A DNA stretch of 64,000 nucleotides from a virus: IMG/VR virus record IMGVR_UViG_3300043466_001817, positions 1-64,000 of that record, one strand, 5' to 3'. This document shows, piece by piece, positions 448 to 55,365 of this stretch. Every line of letters starts with the position of its first letter. Positions within the stretch are counted from its first letter, which is position 1. A model generated the notes under the pieces. That model was not told the origin of the DNA, did not search any database, and saw nothing but the letters and a program-made list of their open reading frames with translations. The position numbers and the translations under genes are program-made.

Positions 448-2764
448 TCCAGTTGGAGATTATGTAATATCATTTAACGGACTGACAGGTGCAGTTACTG
501 GTGTTTCTTCTGTAAATGGTGTTACCGGAGCGGTTACAAATATTGCAGTAACAAACGCAGCTCAAACATTTAGTGGATTGCAATCATTTAGCACGGGAAT
601 TTGTGCTGCTGGATTTACATTTACTGGAAATACATTCTATACAAATTCTTATTTTGCTATAACTACTCCTCTTGTTGGATCAGAAGCTCCGGGCCAAACC
701 AGCATAATATTGAATGCTGGAGATGGTAATATCTCCCCCGATCCAAATTACGTTAAATTTAATACTACAACAGTAGATTTTGGAGCGGCTGGATTGAGTG
801 GATACGTAGTCACATCTGTAAAGGCTCCAAATACAGGAACTCCAATTTATGGAGATGTGATAATAAATGGTTCGGCATACATAGGTGCCGCAAGTTCATC
901 AAAAACCATAACATTAACCAATAATGGTGTTCAAACATTTAATGGATCTACTGGAAACGTTGTTGGGGTTAACAGAGTAAATGGTCTAACTGGTATAGTT
1001 GGATTATCTGCTGGATCTAATATAACAATTTCTACTAGTGGAAATACATTAACAATTTCTGCTGCAGTGCTTATTGGTGCAACTGGAGCCACTGGTGCAA
1101 CTGGAGCCACTGGAGCCACTGGTGCCCAAGGCATCCAAGGAAACACTGGAGCCACTGGAGCCACTGGAGCCACTGGTGCCCAAGGCATTCAAGGAATTCA
1201 AGGAAACACTGGTGGTACAGGTCCTCAAGGCATCCAAGGAAACACTGGAGCCACTGGTGCCACTGGAGCTCAAGGCATCCAAGGCATCCAAGGAAACACT
1301 GGAGCCACTGGAGCCACTGGAGCCACTGGAGCCCAAGGCATCCAAGGAAATACTGGAGCCACTGGTCCAGTTGGAGATTATGTAATATCATTTAACGGAC
1401 TGACAGGTGCAGTTACTGGTGTAACTACAGGATCTGCAAATACTTTTGGCCCACTTCAAAGTTTTACAAATGGAATATCGTTTGCTGGAGCAACCTTCTC
1501 TGGCGTGATGCGAGGATCTGGATCTATAAGAAGCACCGGAGATGTAACGGTTTTTAGAAGTGGTGCGTTTAACACATCAGTTACAGTTGGAAACAATTCT
1601 GTTTCTTTCTATGAATCTGATATTGTTGGTGCTACATTATCTTTGACAGGTATTGCTACAAGCGGAGATGTAACAATAACAATACCGGGTTCCGTATCAA
1701 CGACTTTGGCTGGATTAGGAAATTCACAAACTTTTTCTGGAACTAACACATTTAGTTCTATCATAGCGGCAAATGGTGGTTTGTCCGCTGCAGGATCTAC
1801 CTTTACGGGATTAATAAGAGCATCTGCTGGTATATGTGCATCCGGTGGAACTTTTAGTGGAACACAAACTTTTGTAAGCGGAGCTACATTTAGTTCAAAT
1901 ATAAATTTACAGAACACAGAATTTATTCGAAATACAACAAATGGAAGAGTAGATATAATGCCCGCTCCATCAGGAACTACGGCATTTGGAATGTATTTTG
2001 ACACGACATCATGGGGATTTGGCGTTATTATGGGAACTGTTCGTTCATCGGACAGCGCAATTAATACTGGTGGTAATTTTAGATTCGATGTTCCGATTAC
2101 AATACTCAATGATACCAGATTCCAATTGGGTTCTGATGGTCACTATGGATTATATCGTACAGATACCGGAAACAATACTGCACAACTTTTTGCACTGTCT
2201 AATAATGCAAATAATAGCGGTGCATTTGCTATTGTAGGTTATTTTGATGTTGGAAGTGCAAATAGAAGCCCCGGAATCACACACGTAAATCCAAATCTTT
2301 ATATTTACGCAAATGGTGTTACAAGCGCAAATGATTTTATAAGATTTGAACACGATATTGCAAATGGAAATATAGTATCTGGTGGAACTAGTGGAATTTC
2401 AATCCAACCCGGTTCCGGTACTGTTGGTGTATCTGGATCTATTTCTTCAAGTGGATTTATTTTAAATTCATCTGGTATTAAAAATTTAACAGGAGTTACA
2501 TACACGTTATTGTCAGCAGACAATGGAGATGTATTGACAATAAATGCTGCTGGTGGCTCAACCTTTACAGTTCCATCGGGTCTGCCAGTAGGATATAGCG
2601 TAACAATAATAAATCTAAGCACAAACGGTGTAGGTATAACATCGGCGTCTGGAGTTACTTTAAATAGTTATACCAGCAAATATGCAATTGCTGGTCAGCA
2701 TGCTGCGGTTGGTTTGATTTCTTATGCTACAAACATTTTTAACTTATCAGGTGGATTAACGTAA
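2..2764 (+). CDS. Tail fibre with collagen-like repeats (5' end outside window)
   Basis: The reading frame is open from base 2, so the N-terminus lies upstream; 920 residues are visible. Two blocks of Gly-X-Y collagen-like repeats (units such as [13 protein letters not shown]; roughly residues 1-148 and 358-455) are each followed by the same segment [19 protein letters not shown], identical at DNA level. The rest is Gly/Thr/Ser-rich beta-structure. The C-terminus (about residues 830-920, with [10 protein letters not shown] and [10 protein letters not shown]) resembles the end of many phage tail-fibre and collar proteins. Such repeats form trimeric rods, so host-receptor binding at the tail is the likely role. 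The stop overlaps the ATG of the next gene (TAATG). Confidence 0.85.
1075..1367 (+). repeat. Tandem repeat block 2 encoding collagen-like Gly-X-Y triplets
   Basis: Second in-frame Gly-X-Y block of the same fibre gene, including [10 protein letters not shown] and [10 protein letters not shown] units. It is followed by a copy of the segment that also follows block 1 (about 445-510 versus 1363-1425), so block plus linker looks duplicated. Confidence 0.85.
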
Positions 2765-5049
2765 TGTTTCTGCCCAATTTAAGAAGTCTAGTTTTAAGAA
2801 TAATATTGCCAATAATCAGTGGACCGACACCTCCGGGACCAACTGGGCCTACTGCAAGTACATTTTTATTTGTTAATGGTAGACAAATAACATCCAATCA
2901 TGGTTTAAATGAAAATATTGGAACTTTATCATCAGACAATCCAAGACAAGTTGGAGCAAACAATTGGGCTGTTCTGGCAAAAGGTGTAAACGTTAGTTCG
3001 TCTGGATTTATGGTTGCTATAAGATCTGGAGGATCTTTATGGTCATGGGGTGCGGGGACTATTGGACAAACAGGATTATCTACCATATTAACAAGAAGTA
3101 GCCCATCACAAATAGGTTCTTTTACAGATTGGTCAAAAATTTCTGCTGGCACATATACGTGTGCAGGTGTGAGGACAAATGGTACTTTATGGGCTTGGGG
3201 AAGGAATAATTTTGGACAACTTGGTCAAGGAAATGTAACTATTAGATCAAGTCCTGTTCAAATTGGATCTGATACAAATTGGTCCGATGTACTTGTAGGT
3301 GAATATCATTGCATAGCATTAAAAACTAATGGAACATTATGGACATGGGGAAATAATGCTAGCGGACAATTAGGTTTAGGTGTAGCGGGTACAGGACAAA
3401 GTGTTCCTGTTCAAATAGGAACTGGAACAAATTGGTCTAAAATAGCAATCGGATCAAGAAGTAGTGGTGCAATAACAAATACTGGTCAATTATGGGTTTG
3501 GGGTTTTAATGGATATGGTATGTTGGGTTTGGGAGATACCGTCAATAGATCATCACCAGTACAAGTTGGTGCTTTAACAGATTGGAATTCTTTATCTTTT
3601 GGCTCTACAAACTATGGTAGCAGACACGCAGCGGCAACTAAAACAAATGGAACTCTTTGGACGTGGGGAACTAATAATTATGGACAGTTAGGCCAAAATA
3701 ACACAACAAACAGATCAAGTCCGGTTCAGGTTGGAACTGACACATCATGGTCCTTGGCAGAAGTTTTTAGATATGGATTTTTAGCAATAAAAACAGGCAC
3801 TCTTTGGTTTTCTGGAAGAAATACATATGGTCAGCTGGGATATAGAATATCAATTCGTGGTTCTAATTTGTCACCCATACAAGTAGGAACTGCAACTGGT
3901 TGGACATCATCTCCCGGAAAACTTACAACAGCATATGGATGTCATGCTATTGGCAATACTGGTGGTTTGTGGGCATGGGGAAATAATACTTCAGGACAGT
4001 TGGGATTTAATGATACTACTAATAGATCTTTACCAACTTTAGTAAGCGGAGTAACATCTTGGAATGCAGTATCACATTATTATCAGGCAGGAGTCAGAAG
4101 GGCATTAGGAGGAAGAACAGATGGAACATTATGGGCATGGGGTTCGAATGCTAGCGGTCAATTAGGTTTAGGTAATGTAACACAAAGAAATTCACCTGTA
4201 CAAATTGGAACTGGAACTGGATGGGGGATTACGGGTGGCCAATTTAGCGCTGCTCCTGATTTTTCTATAGCAGTAAAAACTGATGGAACCTTGTGGGCGT
4301 GGGGATTGGGGTCATATGGTATGTTGGGTTTGGGTGATACTGTTAGTAGATCATCACCAGTTCAAGTTGGTGCTTTAACAGATTGGTCAAAAGTTTCTTG
4401 TGCCAGAAGACATACTTTAGCATTAAAAACTAATGGAACGTTGTGGGCATGGGGTTTGAATAGTAATGGTCAATTAGGCCAAAACAATGTAACAAATACA
4501 TCAAGTCCAGTCCAAATTGGGACAGCAACTGATTGGGCATTTATTTTTGCTGGTTATAGTACCTCACACGCAATAAAAACAAATGGAACTCTTTGGGCGT
4601 GGGGAAATGCATCATCGTCGCGTTTAGGATTTGGCGGTTATGGAAATTATACTTCACCGAGACAAGTTGGTTCACTGACAGATTGGTCAAAAGTTTATAG
4701 TTCTACTGGACACACAGTCGCAATAAAAACAAATGGAACTCTTTGGGTATGGGGATTTGCTACTTATGGTAGACTTGGATTAAATGATGGTGTTAATAGA
4801 ATTAGTCCAGTGCAAATAGGTTCAGAAACAAACTGGGGAGTTGCAAAACCGGGTGCAGCACACACAGTTGCAATAAAAACAAATGGAACTCTTTGGGCTT
4901 GGGGACTTCACTCAGGTGGAAGATGTGCATTTGCTGGAACTGCAAATTATGCTGCTAATATCTCTTCTCCAGTTCAAGTAGGTTCTCTAAATACATGGAG
5001 TAACGTTTCTCCAAGATTTACTGATACTGTTTTTGGATTAAAAACTTAA
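2764..5049 (+). CDS. RCC1-repeat beta-propeller protein, probable tail/fibre component
   Basis: A 761-residue protein with about 13 repeats of the RCC1 type (TNGTLWAWGxNxxGQLGxG, then SSPVQIG, about 50 residues each), enough for roughly two seven-bladed propellers. A short Pro/Gly-rich N-terminal stretch (GPTPPGPTGPT) recalls the collagen segment of the fibre before it. The start overlaps the fibre stop, so the two are translationally coupled. RCC1 propellers are binding scaffolds; in phages they occur in or beside receptor-binding genes. A role as distal fibre part or adhesin is inferred from position; no enzymatic motif is seen. Confidence 0.75.
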   Translation: MFLPNLRSLVLRIILPIISGPTPPGPTGPTASTFLFVNGRQITSNHGLNENIGTLSSDNPRQVGANNWAVLAKGVNVSSSGFMVAIRSGGSLWSWGAGTIGQTGLSTILTRSSPSQIGSFTDWSKISAGTYTCAGVRTNGTLWAWGRNNFGQLGQGNVTIRSSPVQIGSDTNWSDVLVGEYHCIALKTNGTLWTWGNNASGQLGLGVAGTGQSVPVQIGTGTNWSKIAIGSRSSGAITNTGQLWVWGFNGYGMLGLGDTVNRSSPVQVGALTDWNSLSFGSTNYGSRHAAATKTNGTLWTWGTNNYGQLGQNNTTNRSSPVQVGTDTSWSLAEVFRYGFLAIKTGTLWFSGRNTYGQLGYRISIRGSNLSPIQVGTATGWTSSPGKLTTAYGCHAIGNTGGLWAWGNNTSGQLGFNDTTNRSLPTLVSGVTSWNAVSHYYQAGVRRALGGRTDGTLWAWGSNASGQLGLGNVTQRNSPVQIGTGTGWGITGGQFSAAPDFSIAVKTDGTLWAWGLGSYGMLGLGDTVSRSSPVQVGALTDWSKVSCARRHTLALKTNGTLWAWGLNSNGQLGQNNVTNTSSPVQIGTATDWAFIFAGYSTSHAIKTNGTLWAWGNASSSRLGFGGYGNYTSPRQVGSLTDWSKVYSSTGHTVAIKTNGTLWVWGFATYGRLGLNDGVNRISPVQIGSETNWGVAKPGAAHTVAIKTNGTLWAWGLHSGGRCAFAGTANYAANISSPVQVGSLNTWSNVSPRFTDTVFGLKT

Positions 5050-36735: not shown

Positions 36736-36741
36736 GCACAT

Positions 36742-36769
36742 AGTATACACTGTAATCAGCAGTTGTCAA
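36742..36769 (-). promoter_or_regulatory. Sigma70-like promoter, leaderless start at 36735
   Basis: TTGACA, 16-nt spacer, TATACT, exactly 6 nt to ATG. It directly follows the 3' hairpin of the tmRNA gene. Confidence 0.8.
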
Positions 36770-36776
36770 ATAACAA

Positions 36777-37113
36777 CACCCCTTTCGGGGTGCGGGTCGA
36801 TTCAGATGCGGGAGACCAAACCCCACTGCTTCAAGCAGCCATTGCCATAGGTGCGGCAATCAATTTTTGCAACGGTTTATTTACGACACTTGTTACCCGT
36901 GTCGGGCATCTCCTTCTTCAATACTCTGCGCCAATCGAAGCCAGTTCAGCCCCTAGATCCCGAAGCCTAGGACTTCGGGGATTGCCCCCTGCAAGAGGAC
37001 TTGACTCGCCATCTCTAATAGATTTGCAGAATCTATTTCGGTTAGGCTAATGGAGCCGAGGGGAATCGAACCCCTGTGTTGTTCGCATTTCTATCCGATA
37101 TCAACAATACCAA
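36777..37113 (-). ncRNA. ssrA: Circularly permuted (two-piece) tmRNA
   Basis: On the minus strand the acceptor piece comes first: T arm GGGGTTCGATTCCCC and 3' acceptor strand CGGCTCC with discriminator A at 37051. A spacer (37050-36954) follows, then the coding piece starting GGGGCTGAACTGGCTTCGAT at 36953. GGGGCTG pairs fully with CGGCTCC and gives a third-pair G-U, the alanyl-tRNA synthetase identity element. The tag frame (36884-36831) starts after GTGTC with GTA and reads VNKPLQKLIAAPMAMAA then TGA, the stop lying in a small hairpin. CGCA/TGCG can form the joining helix. The end is hairpin CACCCC-GAAA-GGGGTG (36792-36777). Function: rescue of stalled ribosomes and tagging for proteolysis. 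CCA is not encoded. tRNA-Pro lies 1 nt upstream. Confidence 0.87.
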
Positions 37114-37187
37114 TTAGGTAGAATGGATTTGAACCATCAACCTTCTCGACCCAAACGAGACGCGCTACCAAATTGCGCTACTACCTA
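37114..37187 (-). tRNA. tRNA-Pro (anticodon TGG)
   Basis: Acceptor TAGGTAG/CTACCTA pairs completely. D stem GCGC, anticodon stem TCTCG/CGAGA around loop TTTGGGT, and T loop TTCAAAT. Discriminator A, no encoded CCA. It directly precedes the tmRNA acceptor piece in the same orientation. Confidence 0.9.
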
Positions 37188-37203
37188 GTACAAACTTATT
37201 TAG

Positions 37204-37317
37204 ACAGTGATATGGGACTTGAACCCATTATCCAGCTTTGTCGGTCAATTTTAATAGACCGTTTTACGCTGGTACATCTCTTGTCAAGACTGCTTGTTCC
37301 CACCAAGCGGATCACTG
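37204..37317 (-). tRNA. Unusual tRNA-like structure, anticodon unclear
   Basis: Acceptor CAGTGAT/ATCACTG pairs over 7 bp, followed by D-arm-like GCTTG-GTGGGAA-CAAGC and a good T arm (ATGGG-TTCAAGT-CCCAT). Between them lie a weak anticodon-like hairpin (TCTTGACAAGAGA) and a 45-nt insert with nested stems CCAGC/GCTGG and CGGTC/GACCG. At 114 nt it is too long for a normal class II tRNA, and the first 34 nt overlap the end of the gene at 37284. It may be a degenerate or intron-bearing tRNA. Confidence 0.4.
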
Positions 37318-37925
37318 GTTTTTTCTATATCGTAATAATATTTGTCATCATCACCACTAAGAATCCATCTATCGCTTTTATCTTCGCATCTATAAATTTT
37401 ATCATCAACTTTGTAATCTGGATTTTCTGGAAATGGTTTAGTCGTGAAAGACATTTCTTTCCAAAAAATTCTATTGTTTGGTTGTAAGGTATAATTTCCA
37501 TTATCAAGTTCAATCATATGAAGGCATTTGTATTGACTTGGTTCATCGCTGTAAGGGTTGTCATACCAATCAAATGTCATCATATAATTTCCCCAACAAC
37601 TAGTTTTATCTTTAAAAATTACTTTTGCCCTTGCTCCATTTAAGTAATCATAAGAAATTACAGTTGACTTAATTGAAAAGCAATCCCATAGTTGAAGCAA
37701 ATCCAATTGCTGAATTTCACATGGTTTGCTGCAAAGTTTATTAATTGGAACTCTACTTCTTATTGTTCCATTATCAAGCATCACATTAAATAACATTGCT
37801 CTGCTTGGGCTTGATTGAGCTCCAAACACAGTTACCTTTTCATATTCACCTTTAAAATTTTTATCTTGATAAAGATGTTCTTTTCTTAATAAACAATAAA
37901 AGTGTGGTATGTTAAGATTATACAT
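37284..37925 (-). CDS. Conserved phage hypothetical protein
   Basis: A 213-residue beta-rich protein. ATG 37925 (MYNLNIPHFYCLLRKEHLYQ) lies just after tRNA-Tyr; longer frames would run through that tRNA. Features: FNVMLDNGTIRSRVPINKLC, LQLWDCFSIKSTV, SCWGNYMMTFDWYDNPYSDE and an acidic C-terminus. The motif of a small molecule or DNA mimic cannot be stated. Similar proteins occur in T4-like cyanophages. Its end overlaps the tRNA-like element. Confidence 0.65.
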   Translation of the reverse strand: MYNLNIPHFYCLLRKEHLYQDKNFKGEYEKVTVFGAQSSPSRAMLFNVMLDNGTIRSRVPINKLCSKPCEIQQLDLLQLWDCFSIKSTVISYDYLNGARAKVIFKDKTSCWGNYMMTFDWYDNPYSDEPSQYKCLHMIELDNGNYTLQPNNRIFWKEMSFTTKPFPENPDYKVDDKIYRCEDKSDRWILSGDDDKYYYDIEKTSDPLGGNKQS

Positions 37926-37928
37926 GAA

Positions 37929-38011
37929 TGCGAGCGGAGGGATTCGAACCTTCGTAGACAAAAGTCAGCAGATTTACAGTCTGCCCTCGTTGACCGCTTG
38001 AGTACACTCGC
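37929..38011 (-). tRNA. tRNA-Tyr (anticodon GTA)
   Basis: Class II tRNA. Acceptor GCGAGTG/CGCTCGC with one G-U pair, anticodon stem CAGA/TCTG around CTGTAAA, variable arm CTGACTTTTGTC, T loop TTCGAAT, discriminator A. Confidence 0.93.
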
Positions 38012-53025: not shown

Positions 53026-53090
53026 CTACTATCAGGGAGCGCAAATATTATGCAAAAAATCAAAGTTCCTCTGAGGAACTTTGATAGTAG
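53026..53090 (-). repeat. Hairpin element E1 (CTACTATCA family)
   Basis: Boxes CTACTATCA (53026) and TGATAGTAG (53082-53090) enclose the stem ATCAAAGTTCCTC/GAGGAACTTTGAT. Read on the minus strand it follows the VWA gene and gives a hairpin with TTTTTT behind it, so it can terminate transcription. One of six copies with different stems. Confidence 0.88.
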
Positions 53091-53113
53091 CCGGTATGTA
53101 TACAATAGAACAA

Positions 53114-53148
53114 CCCCCGGGCCTGGCTCTCTCCTTCCAGTCCGGGGG
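53114..53148 (-). terminator. Terminator-like hairpin after VWA gene
   Basis: CCCCCGG/CCGGGGG stem just behind the stop at 53167, before element E1. This hairpin-then-E order recurs in the other cassettes. Confidence 0.65.
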
Positions 53149-53166
53149 CGTTCCTACGGGGATTAC

Positions 53167-55269
53167 TTACTTGCAGGGCAAGCTGTAGATGGCTTCCGTC
53201 CCCCGCTTGAGGGGCTGGCCCGCCACGATGTCCACATACCGGGAGAGGAACACGCGGCTACCGCTGCGCTTCGCCATCGTCTTGACGAAGGTGTTCTTGA
53301 CCTTCGTGAAGGTTCCGCTGTCCACGATGGCATCCTCGTCCTTGACGATCTTCGGGGTCTTGACGAGGAAGTACGCATCGTACCCGTGGAAGATCTCGTC
53401 GTGGACAACGATGCAGCCGTCCTTGTACGCCTCCTTCGCAGCAGCGAACCGGGGAGAGGCGGCGAGGTTCTGATACGAACCCCTCTCCTTCGCGGCCACG
53501 CAGTACTGGTAGAAGAACGATTCGGTCAGGGCGTTGGGGCCAACCATCATCCCGACGAGGCGGGCGTTGAACTTCTCACGCAGGGAGTGCAGCATGATGC
53601 CGACGATCTCGTTGCCCAAGCACGAAGTCATCTCGCGGGAAGGCATCCGGGTGATCGTTCCCGTGATGTTGTTCTGCACCGTCAGCACCCCGTCCTGACC
53701 GACGCTGTACATGGAGTAGATATCGTCGCCCTTCGCGCCACGGATGCCGATGCCGTTGGGCGAACCGTCCGTGATGTGCATGAGCGTGGGGATCTGAATG
53801 TTGTTGGCCTTGATCCACTCCGCGACGAACTGGGACGCGATGGCGACGGCCTCCACCGTGGGCGTACCGCCCAACCGGATCGCAGCGGGCCGCTTGTTCT
53901 GAACGATGGACTCGTAGAGGTAGGCCATGACCTTCTCGCGCTTGTCCGCACCGTCCCGCGACGAGGCAATGTTGATGAGGCGGGCCTCGTTGAGCGTGAG
54001 GGTGTTCATCTGCTGTCCGACGATCTTCGGCTCAAACATCCTGCTGAAGTCGCTGTAGTACTTCGTGGGGTTCTTCTTGCGCCACTCATCGAACTTGCCG
54101 CCGTGGAACGCGGCCTGATTCACTTCGGTGTAGCCGAACACCTCAAAGGGGATCTTCGCCTTCTCGCAGAACCAAACCAACTGGCAGACCTGAAGGAAGC
54201 AGTCCGACAGAGAGTGCTGCATCGACCCGCTGAAGTCCATGAGGAACACGATGCCGTGGTTCTTGCCGTCCTGCTTGACGATCTTGGAAAGGAAGATATC
54301 GTCGTGGGTGCGGTACTGGTGGAGGCGGTCAAGGTTCAACTGGCCCGTCTGCTTGGGCCGCTCCTTGCGGATCGCGTCCGCTGCCTTGCGGCGCTCAAAC
54401 TGCATGACGAGCTGCCGAACGAACGAATCGGAGTCCTTGACGAACTGGCGGTAGCCGGTCAGATCGACCTGCGGGTACGAGGTCTGCTTCTCAAACTCGT
54501 CAAAGATGTAATCCGTGGGGACGATGGCAGCGTTGACATCCTCCAACATGGGGATGACAACCGTGGGCGAGTGAACCTTCGGGCCGGACTTCTTGCCGTG
54601 GCCCGCGATGTCAGTCTCCACGATCCCGTCCTGCATGGCTTCGGTGCCGATCGCGTCGGCCTGACCCTGCTGCTGCTCTGCCTTCTCGCGGGCAGCCTGC
54701 ATCTGCGGCGACTGGTAGATGATCTTGGCGAGGGCGATGCACTCCTCGAAAGTCTCGCAACCATCGACCGCATCCACGATGGCCTGCTCGTTCTCGTCCA
54801 TCGGAACGGTGACGAAACCGGGAACGCCCCACTTGAAGTGGATGTTCACCTTGTTGACGATGTTCGCGTCGGTCAAGTCCATCTTGGCGATGCCGAACAT
54901 ATCCAAGTCGTTGATCTCCTTGTAGCCCAAGAAGAAGTCGCGGCGGGTGCCGGGGAACTTGTCCTTCATCTTCTTCTCAATGCGGACATCCTCAATGACA
55001 TTGGCGATGCGCTGAAGCAACTCGATGTTGAACCCCTCCGCTTCGGCCTGATCGAACAGCACCTTCGACTGCTCGTAGGGAGTCCACAGGGCGTGGCTGA
55101 TCTCATGGGCGACGAGCATGGTCTGCACCGTTTCGGAAACCTTCCAGACGGGCATGACGAGGTGGCGGTTCTCAACATCGAACGACGCGGTGGCGGCGTT
55201 GGCATCGAAGGAGAACGAAATGTTTTCGGAGGCGAGGGCGCGAGCGAAGATGGAGAGAGAAGTGTTCAT
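53167..55269 (-). CDS. HExxH metallopeptidase-like / von Willebrand A protein (CobT-like)
   Basis: A 700-residue protein. Near residue 58 VAHEISHALWTPYE holds an HExxH zinc motif, followed by NVIEDVRIEKKMKDKFPG, the pattern of T4-like cyanophage 'peptidase'. A charged linker (180-260) leads to a VWA domain with MIDAS DFSGSMQHS near 343 and DGSPNG further on. VWA proteins of this type pair with MoxR/CobS AAA ATPases; the partner lies just upstream (56997-55735). The pair may remodel a protein or insert metal. ATG 55269 is chosen since a -10 box ends 6 nt upstream and the longer frame spans it. Confidence 0.82.
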   Translation of the reverse strand: MNTSLSIFARALASENISFSFDANAATASFDVENRHLVMPVWKVSETVQTMLVAHEISHALWTPYEQSKVLFDQAEAEGFNIELLQRIANVIEDVRIEKKMKDKFPGTRRDFFLGYKEINDLDMFGIAKMDLTDANIVNKVNIHFKWGVPGFVTVPMDENEQAIVDAVDGCETFEECIALAKIIYQSPQMQAAREKAEQQQGQADAIGTEAMQDGIVETDIAGHGKKSGPKVHSPTVVIPMLEDVNAAIVPTDYIFDEFEKQTSYPQVDLTGYRQFVKDSDSFVRQLVMQFERRKAADAIRKERPKQTGQLNLDRLHQYRTHDDIFLSKIVKQDGKNHGIVFLMDFSGSMQHSLSDCFLQVCQLVWFCEKAKIPFEVFGYTEVNQAAFHGGKFDEWRKKNPTKYYSDFSRMFEPKIVGQQMNTLTLNEARLINIASSRDGADKREKVMAYLYESIVQNKRPAAIRLGGTPTVEAVAIASQFVAEWIKANNIQIPTLMHITDGSPNGIGIRGAKGDDIYSMYSVGQDGVLTVQNNITGTITRMPSREMTSCLGNEIVGIMLHSLREKFNARLVGMMVGPNALTESFFYQYCVAAKERGSYQNLAASPRFAAAKEAYKDGCIVVHDEIFHGYDAYFLVKTPKIVKDEDAIVDSGTFTKVKNTFVKTMAKRSGSRVFLSRYVDIVAGQPLKRGTEAIYSLPCK

Positions 55270-55275
55270 GCGCTC

Positions 55276-55303
55276 ATTGTAGCAGGTCTGTAGGTGAATG
55301 CAA
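55276..55303 (-). promoter_or_regulatory. Sigma70-like promoter, leaderless start at 55269
   Basis: TTGCAT, 16-nt spacer, TACAAT, exactly 6 nt to ATG. Confidence 0.78.
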
Positions 55304-55365
55304 CTACTAGGATCGGAAAATGGCAATTCTTTTTTGCGTCCGATAAGGGACCGGCCCCGTCCAGG

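Follow-up and report, generated by a model that had tools for sequence, protein, structure and literature searches.

Does a stretch of phage DNA whose acceptor part precedes its tag-coding part encode a circularly permuted, two-piece tmRNA, and could the phage make use of it? The window, i.e. the whole stretch of DNA analysed here, comprises the first 64 kb of an IMG/VR virus record of 94,095 bases in total. Proteins encoded in this record include a T4-type DNA polymerase, a DnaB-like helicase, a primase, a ribonucleotide reductase, a RuvC-like resolvase and tail fibres, identifying the carrier as a T4-like phage. Among cultured phages, cyanophages have the nearest DNA polymerases, with an identity of only ~42%. 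Elsewhere in the window, a large protein adjoining a tail fibre gene (2764-5049, plus strand) matches phage families annotated as regulator of chromosome condensation, and one stretch carries long open frames on opposite strands (53050-55293, plus, and 53167-55326, minus; 747 and 719 amino acids), the plus-strand frame being without a PHROG match.

Results

A permuted tmRNA gene and its surroundings

The Rfam model RF04321 (tmRNA_permuted) matches window positions 36831-37111 on the minus strand with 64.4 bits (cut-off 47; E = 3.9e-10 for 64 kb), and independently of Rfam, ARAGORN calls a tmRNA* at 36740-37142 of the same strand. Starting at 37111, the gene ends with the terminator at 36776. 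The T arm and the 3' acceptor strand come first and are separated by a spacer from the 5' acceptor strand; a D-loop-like region, a pseudoknot and a short open frame are next, and the stop hairpin and the terminator complete the order (Table 1). The acceptor and T-arm part is encoded 5' of the 5' acceptor strand and the tag part, as is characteristic of the permuted two-piece form. Gene type, locus, strand and order of the parts are as given in a preliminary description of this DNA; the intervening sequence had not been separated out there. The two acceptor strands, GGGGCTG and CGGCTCC, pair in 7/7 positions with the G-U third pair that had been described (G3.U70), and a second G.U is found at position 6.

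Table 1. Features of the tmRNA locus, with positions in the window.
Feature	Position	Strand	Evidence or remark
tRNA-Pro(UGG)	37114..37187	-	ARAGORN and Rfam; two bases 5' of acceptor piece
Acceptor piece	37051..37111	-	RF04321 match; pair counts over 52 sequences; sequence
P2 5' strands (acceptor piece)	GGUAU 37111-37107; UGCG about 37087-37084	-	RF04321 and pair counts
T arm AGGGG-UUCGAUU-CCCCU	37075-37059	-	RF04321 and pair counts
Acceptor 3' strand CGGCUCC	37058-37052	-	RF04321 and pair counts
Discriminator A	37051	-	UUA next; CCA not encoded
Intervening sequence, 97 nt (P0, HP1, HP2, HP3)	36954..37050	-	covariation; covariance model R1; fold z -2.3
Coding piece (acceptor 5' strand, D-loop region, P2 3' strands, PK1, tag, 3' hairpin and pseudoknot, to terminator)	36776..36953	-	sequence, RF04321, pair counts
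Acceptor 5' strand GGGGCUG	36953-36947	-	sequence and pair counts
Pseudoknot PK1	36869..36904	-	S1 covariation; S2 conserved
PK1 S1 CGACAC/GUGUCG	36904-36899 with 36889-36884	-	covaries
PK1 S2 GUAAC/GUUGC	36896-36892 with 36873-36869	-	GUAAC or GCAAC; GUUGC invariant
Tag frame GCC GCA CCU AUG GCA AUG GCU GCU (AAPMAMAA)	36834..36857	-	spacer lengths, synonymous changes, Rfam resume codon (L101), ARAGORN homologue tags
Resume codon GCC; stop UGA	36857; 36833-36831	-	as for tag frame
Stop-codon hairpin CUGCU-UGA-AGCAG	36826..36838	-	covaries: CCGCU/AGCGG in L027 and L109
Intrinsic terminator-like hairpin GCACCCC-GAAA-GGGGUGU, then UGUUAUUU	36776..36793	-	sequence

SmpB was found neither in the carrier record nor in 20 related records, so that SmpB of the host would be needed; this absence is only suggestive, as the 94-kb contig may be incomplete.

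Two tRNA-like elements occur near tmRNA genes of this kind. The one in the window (37198-37315, minus strand) combines a canonical T arm with the acceptor-like stem CAGUGAU/AUCACUG, and three other arms replace the cloverleaf. Its fold z is -2.8, ARAGORN and Rfam give no call for it, and homologues with compensatory changes are present in L029, L101 and L117. It is overlapped by the 3' end of the neighbour gene (37284-37961, minus strand; PHROG 3704, annotated as PurM or ferredoxin in other phages, no Pfam match), which is ~10 residues longer than the versions of relatives. The second element, of 81-97 nt, lies 5' of the tmRNA in other loci (L011:527-615, L120, L128, L137 and others); it has a stem GCGUAGU/ACUACGC, a lengthened anticodon-like stem and the T loop UGCAAGU, and received no ARAGORN call in the loci scanned.

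Conserved pairing in a family of 52 genes

Homologues were searched in IMG/VR viral contigs by the neighbour gene, by the permuted-tmRNA pattern and by a P2/PK1 signature. Of the 42 records found via the neighbour gene, many being fragments, 17 have an RF04321 score above the cut-off; of the 24 found via the pattern, 23 do. The comparison set comprises 52 distinct sequences of one family, that of the window included. Counting 37 pairs over this set, 1913 of 1924 cells are paired, compared to 1796 +/- 4.6 with shuffled partners, and none of 1000 shuffles equals the observed value; the shuffles permute partners among sequences and ignore relatedness, while double changes are independent of them. 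Both a match to a permuted-tmRNA model and conserved pairing in related phages, on which the preliminary description had made its proposal depend, are thus present.

The acceptor stem occurs in nine versions and is fully paired in 51/52 sequences, with G3.U70 in all 52. Double changes that keep the pairing are seen in the T stem, P2, PK1 S1 and the stop hairpin, where the stop codon lies as previously proposed. P2 varies between GGUAU/AUACC, GGCAU/AUGUC and GACAU/AUGUC, and PK1 S1 between CGACAC/GUGUCG, CGUUUC/GAAACG (L092) and CGUU/AACG. PK1 S2 pairs GUAAC or GCAAC with GUUGC in all 52; an alternative S2, ACGG/CCGU, fits the window alone and was dropped.

A distant DNA search of the cultured phages in INPHARED returned only short matches in the T-arm region, and none of the 80 GTDB matches listed is a bacterial genome with the family signature. 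As to a bacterial donor, the GTDB stretches with TGAAGAAGGAGATRYCCG are chance matches only, among the matches listed, which is weak evidence.

The preliminary description had likened the tag to cyanobacterial ones ending in APVAA. This affinity is not supported: the window scores 34.7 bits with the cyanobacterial model RF01851 (cut-off 70) and 32.8 with the betaproteobacterial model RF01850 (cut-off 84; best homologue seen 53.8), and the alphaproteobacterial model RF01849 has no match at the tmRNA locus. The covariance-model check that had been suggested thus succeeds with the general permuted model and fails with the clade models, and we assign no cyanobacterial, alpha or beta label.

The tag comprises eight codons

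The tag reads AAPMAMAA and is followed by a UGA stop. An open 8-codon tag with an Ala-Ala end is found in 52/52 homologues, synonymous codon changes included; the family has eleven tag peptides, among them AAPMRMAA, ANELAMAA, ANQLAMAA, ANYMAMAA and AAPMAMAA. The last bases of codons 1 and 4, which pair in a tag hairpin, are C and G or U and A in all 52, and this double change is synonymous in Ala and Leu codons while the hairpin is kept.

A longer tag has been proposed: 17 residues, VNKPLQKLIAAPMAMAA, in the preliminary description, and VVNKPLQKLIAAPMAMAA as printed by ARAGORN in the window, i.e. 17 or 18 residues. The frame is indeed open upstream as far as GUA/GUC, but the upstream codons fall in PK1 S1 and S2, and the VNKPLQKLI stretch corresponds to PK1 and a spacer that varies by one base. 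Across homologues GUUGC is followed by a 10- or 11-nt spacer and then by GCC or GCU. L099 and L100 share one tag, yet their spacers differ by one base; the spacer is therefore not translatable in the tag frame. This is further supported by RF04321 and the betaproteobacterial model, which align the resume codon at the corresponding GCC in L101, and by ARAGORN, which gives 8-residue tags in five homologues (L101, L117, L029, L090, L098). The longer tag is thus extremely improbable.

The sequence before the resume codon resembles that of E. coli in many homologues, with AAAAAAUAAUU before GCU; in E. coli tmRNA the resume codon GCA is preceded by six A and then UAGUC (PMC2481249). Position -4 is always a purine (A in 44, G in 8 including the window), which fits the rule for A86 of E. 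coli tmRNA; A86 sets the frame, and A86G lowers activity to a weak level without abolishing it (PMC2481249). A harmful A86C-like change was considered for the window and dismissed, as the C in question sits upstream of PK1 S2 and not at -4. An alternative resume codon, GCA (within 36873-36868), combined with a +1 frame shift or with slippage on AAAAA, was likewise rejected: in relatives 12 or 13 nt separate it from the tag, its GC is part of PK1, and cases that have no long A run (L095) speak against slippage.

A structured spacer between the two pieces

Of the 52 genes, 42 have an intervening sequence of 71-99 nt with a conserved structure. A GCC/GGC stem (GGC/GCC in L095) closes it. The first hairpin has a CUGCAA-like loop, and its stem occurs in at least eight variants; a second hairpin CCUCG/CGGGG follows, and a third hairpin is missing in the 71-74-nt forms. 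Pairing is found in 94% of cells and falls below 50% when the partners are slid. Double changes occur at 12 of the 26 pairs, compared to a mean of 4.4 in shuffles. The loops of HP1 and HP2 may possibly be in contact (CUGCAA/UUGCAG): this putative pairing shows double changes at two positions (CUGUAA/UUACAG in L012, CUGCG/CGCAG in L092), and its fifth pair is broken in 15/22.

A covariance model of the spacer, R1, matches only inside tmRNA genes in 60 sources, and in six further contigs the spacer again lies behind an acceptor piece; we thus discarded a free-standing RNA. The Rfam models leave the spacer unpaired, and no description of such a structured tmRNA spacer was found in the open literature searched. 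Such spacers are normally treated as unstructured, and the conserved structure of the 97-nt spacer seems to be a new feature.

Six genes (L034, L038, L039, L107, L120, L138) have an intervening sequence of just 5-6 nt, a tight loop joining the acceptor strands; identical copies of the L034 form are present in many fetched loci. Genes with neither form carry a 165-167-nt insert, similar to a tRNA-like element that these phages also have at other places. A relative of the 37198-37315 element, GGUUAGCGGCGUGG...GACAAAGCCGG...CUAACC, lies inside the tmRNA spacer of L027 (about 3639-3803), L099 and L109.

It is conceivable, if somewhat doubtful, that the excised spacer is itself a functional RNA, a compact three-hairpin domain with a possible loop-loop contact and compensatory evolution, for which relatives have swapped in the 5-6-nt loop or the tRNA-like element. 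Its task may be to bring the precursor into shape for RNase P and 3' processing, or it may work as an independent small RNA once released.

Discussion

Judging from gene organization and covariation, the locus very probably encodes a functional two-piece tmRNA of the phage. A single transcript would contain the tRNA-Pro, the acceptor piece, the structured spacer and the coding piece. From the order of the parts, RNase P cleavage and processing at the 3' end are expected to yield two RNAs, in the manner known from Caulobacter (Keiler et al. 2000, as cited in PMC9004378). RNase P would cut before GGGGCUG, and 3' trimming and CCA addition, required as UUA follows the discriminator, would take place after A 37051. 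The predicted products are an acceptor RNA of ~61 nt and a coding RNA of ~175 nt, joined through pairing in the acceptor stem and P2. Charging, via G3.U70, would be by alanyl-tRNA synthetase; with host SmpB the RNA could enter ribosomes stalled on broken mRNA, add Ala and AAPMAMAA, and release the ribosome at the UGA in the hairpin. Ribosomes would thereby stay available for phage translation while mRNA is degraded during infection.

A role in ribosome recycling and proteolysis is plausible. The AND..Y part of the E. coli tag serves in SspB binding, and strong proteolysis is uncertain because the short tag is without this part. The G at -4 in the window is a counterpoint to full activity, compared with the lowered activity of E. 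coli A86G (PMC2481249).

The same base bears on another possibility, namely that the phage RNA acts as a decoy which titrates host SmpB or occupies stalled ribosomes and so blocks host trans-translation. A decoy role of this kind has been proposed for the RNA of mycobacteriophage DS6A, which consists of the tRNA-like domain (TLD) only, and a TLD-only phage form inhibits E. coli tmRNA (PMC11915505, PMC4131195). A possible weakening of tagging by G at -4 in the clade of the window would agree with this. A decoy, however, would have no use for the tag frame, the stop codon, PK1 and the resume spacing, and 52/52 homologues keep them all, which renders this explanation improbable. A further alternative is a captured host gene carried along without function. 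That only part of the phages sharing the neighbour gene have the tmRNA (17/42 records above cut-off, many being fragments) could point to such a relic, but the strong compensatory change, the intact tag in all 52 and the lack of the family signature in bacterial genomes among the 80 GTDB matches listed make it very improbable.

The 52 distinct genes add a large family from uncultured phages to a list of tmRNAs mostly derived from isolates. They constitute a natural test set for the needs of trans-translation, with acceptor-stem swaps, very short tags and spacers of 5 to 167 nt. They also illustrate that tag calling in permuted tmRNAs can go wrong if PK1 is not modelled, and the structured spacer makes it testable whether the portion cut away from a permuted tmRNA serves a purpose.

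The tmRNA described here is a new family of a known kind, and its unusual feature is the structured spacer. With the permuted tmRNAs of Alphaproteobacteria, Betaproteobacteria and Cyanobacteria (RF04321) it shares the gene order, the tRNA-like domain with G3.U70, P2, PK1, the resume codon and tag, the stop hairpin and the terminator. It differs from these bacterial genes in being phage-borne, in its 8-codon tag, in not encoding CCA, in reaching no clade model cut-off and in its structured intervening sequence. Bxz1-like mycobacteriophages and Bacillus phage G also encode tmRNAs, of the one-piece form and not permuted. The TLD-only RNA of DS6A is phage-encoded as well but, unlike the tmRNA in the window, has no tag frame (PMC4131195). 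The preliminary description had named few or no cases of permuted tmRNAs in phages; a count of 2022 corrects this, as the 133 unique phage tmRNA structures included 53 predicted two-piece forms, 50 of which came from marine or aquatic phages (PMC9004378). Whereas the tmRNA in the window is without a match to the alphaproteobacterial model, that of Methylophilales phage Melnitz (MZ577097), the phage which the 2022 paper describes, scores 106.7 bits with it, is thus of alphaproteobacterial type, and is given the tag ANDNYVPVDYALAA by ARAGORN; Melnitz and other marine phages are likewise cases of a permuted tmRNA in a T4-like aquatic phage (PMC9004378).
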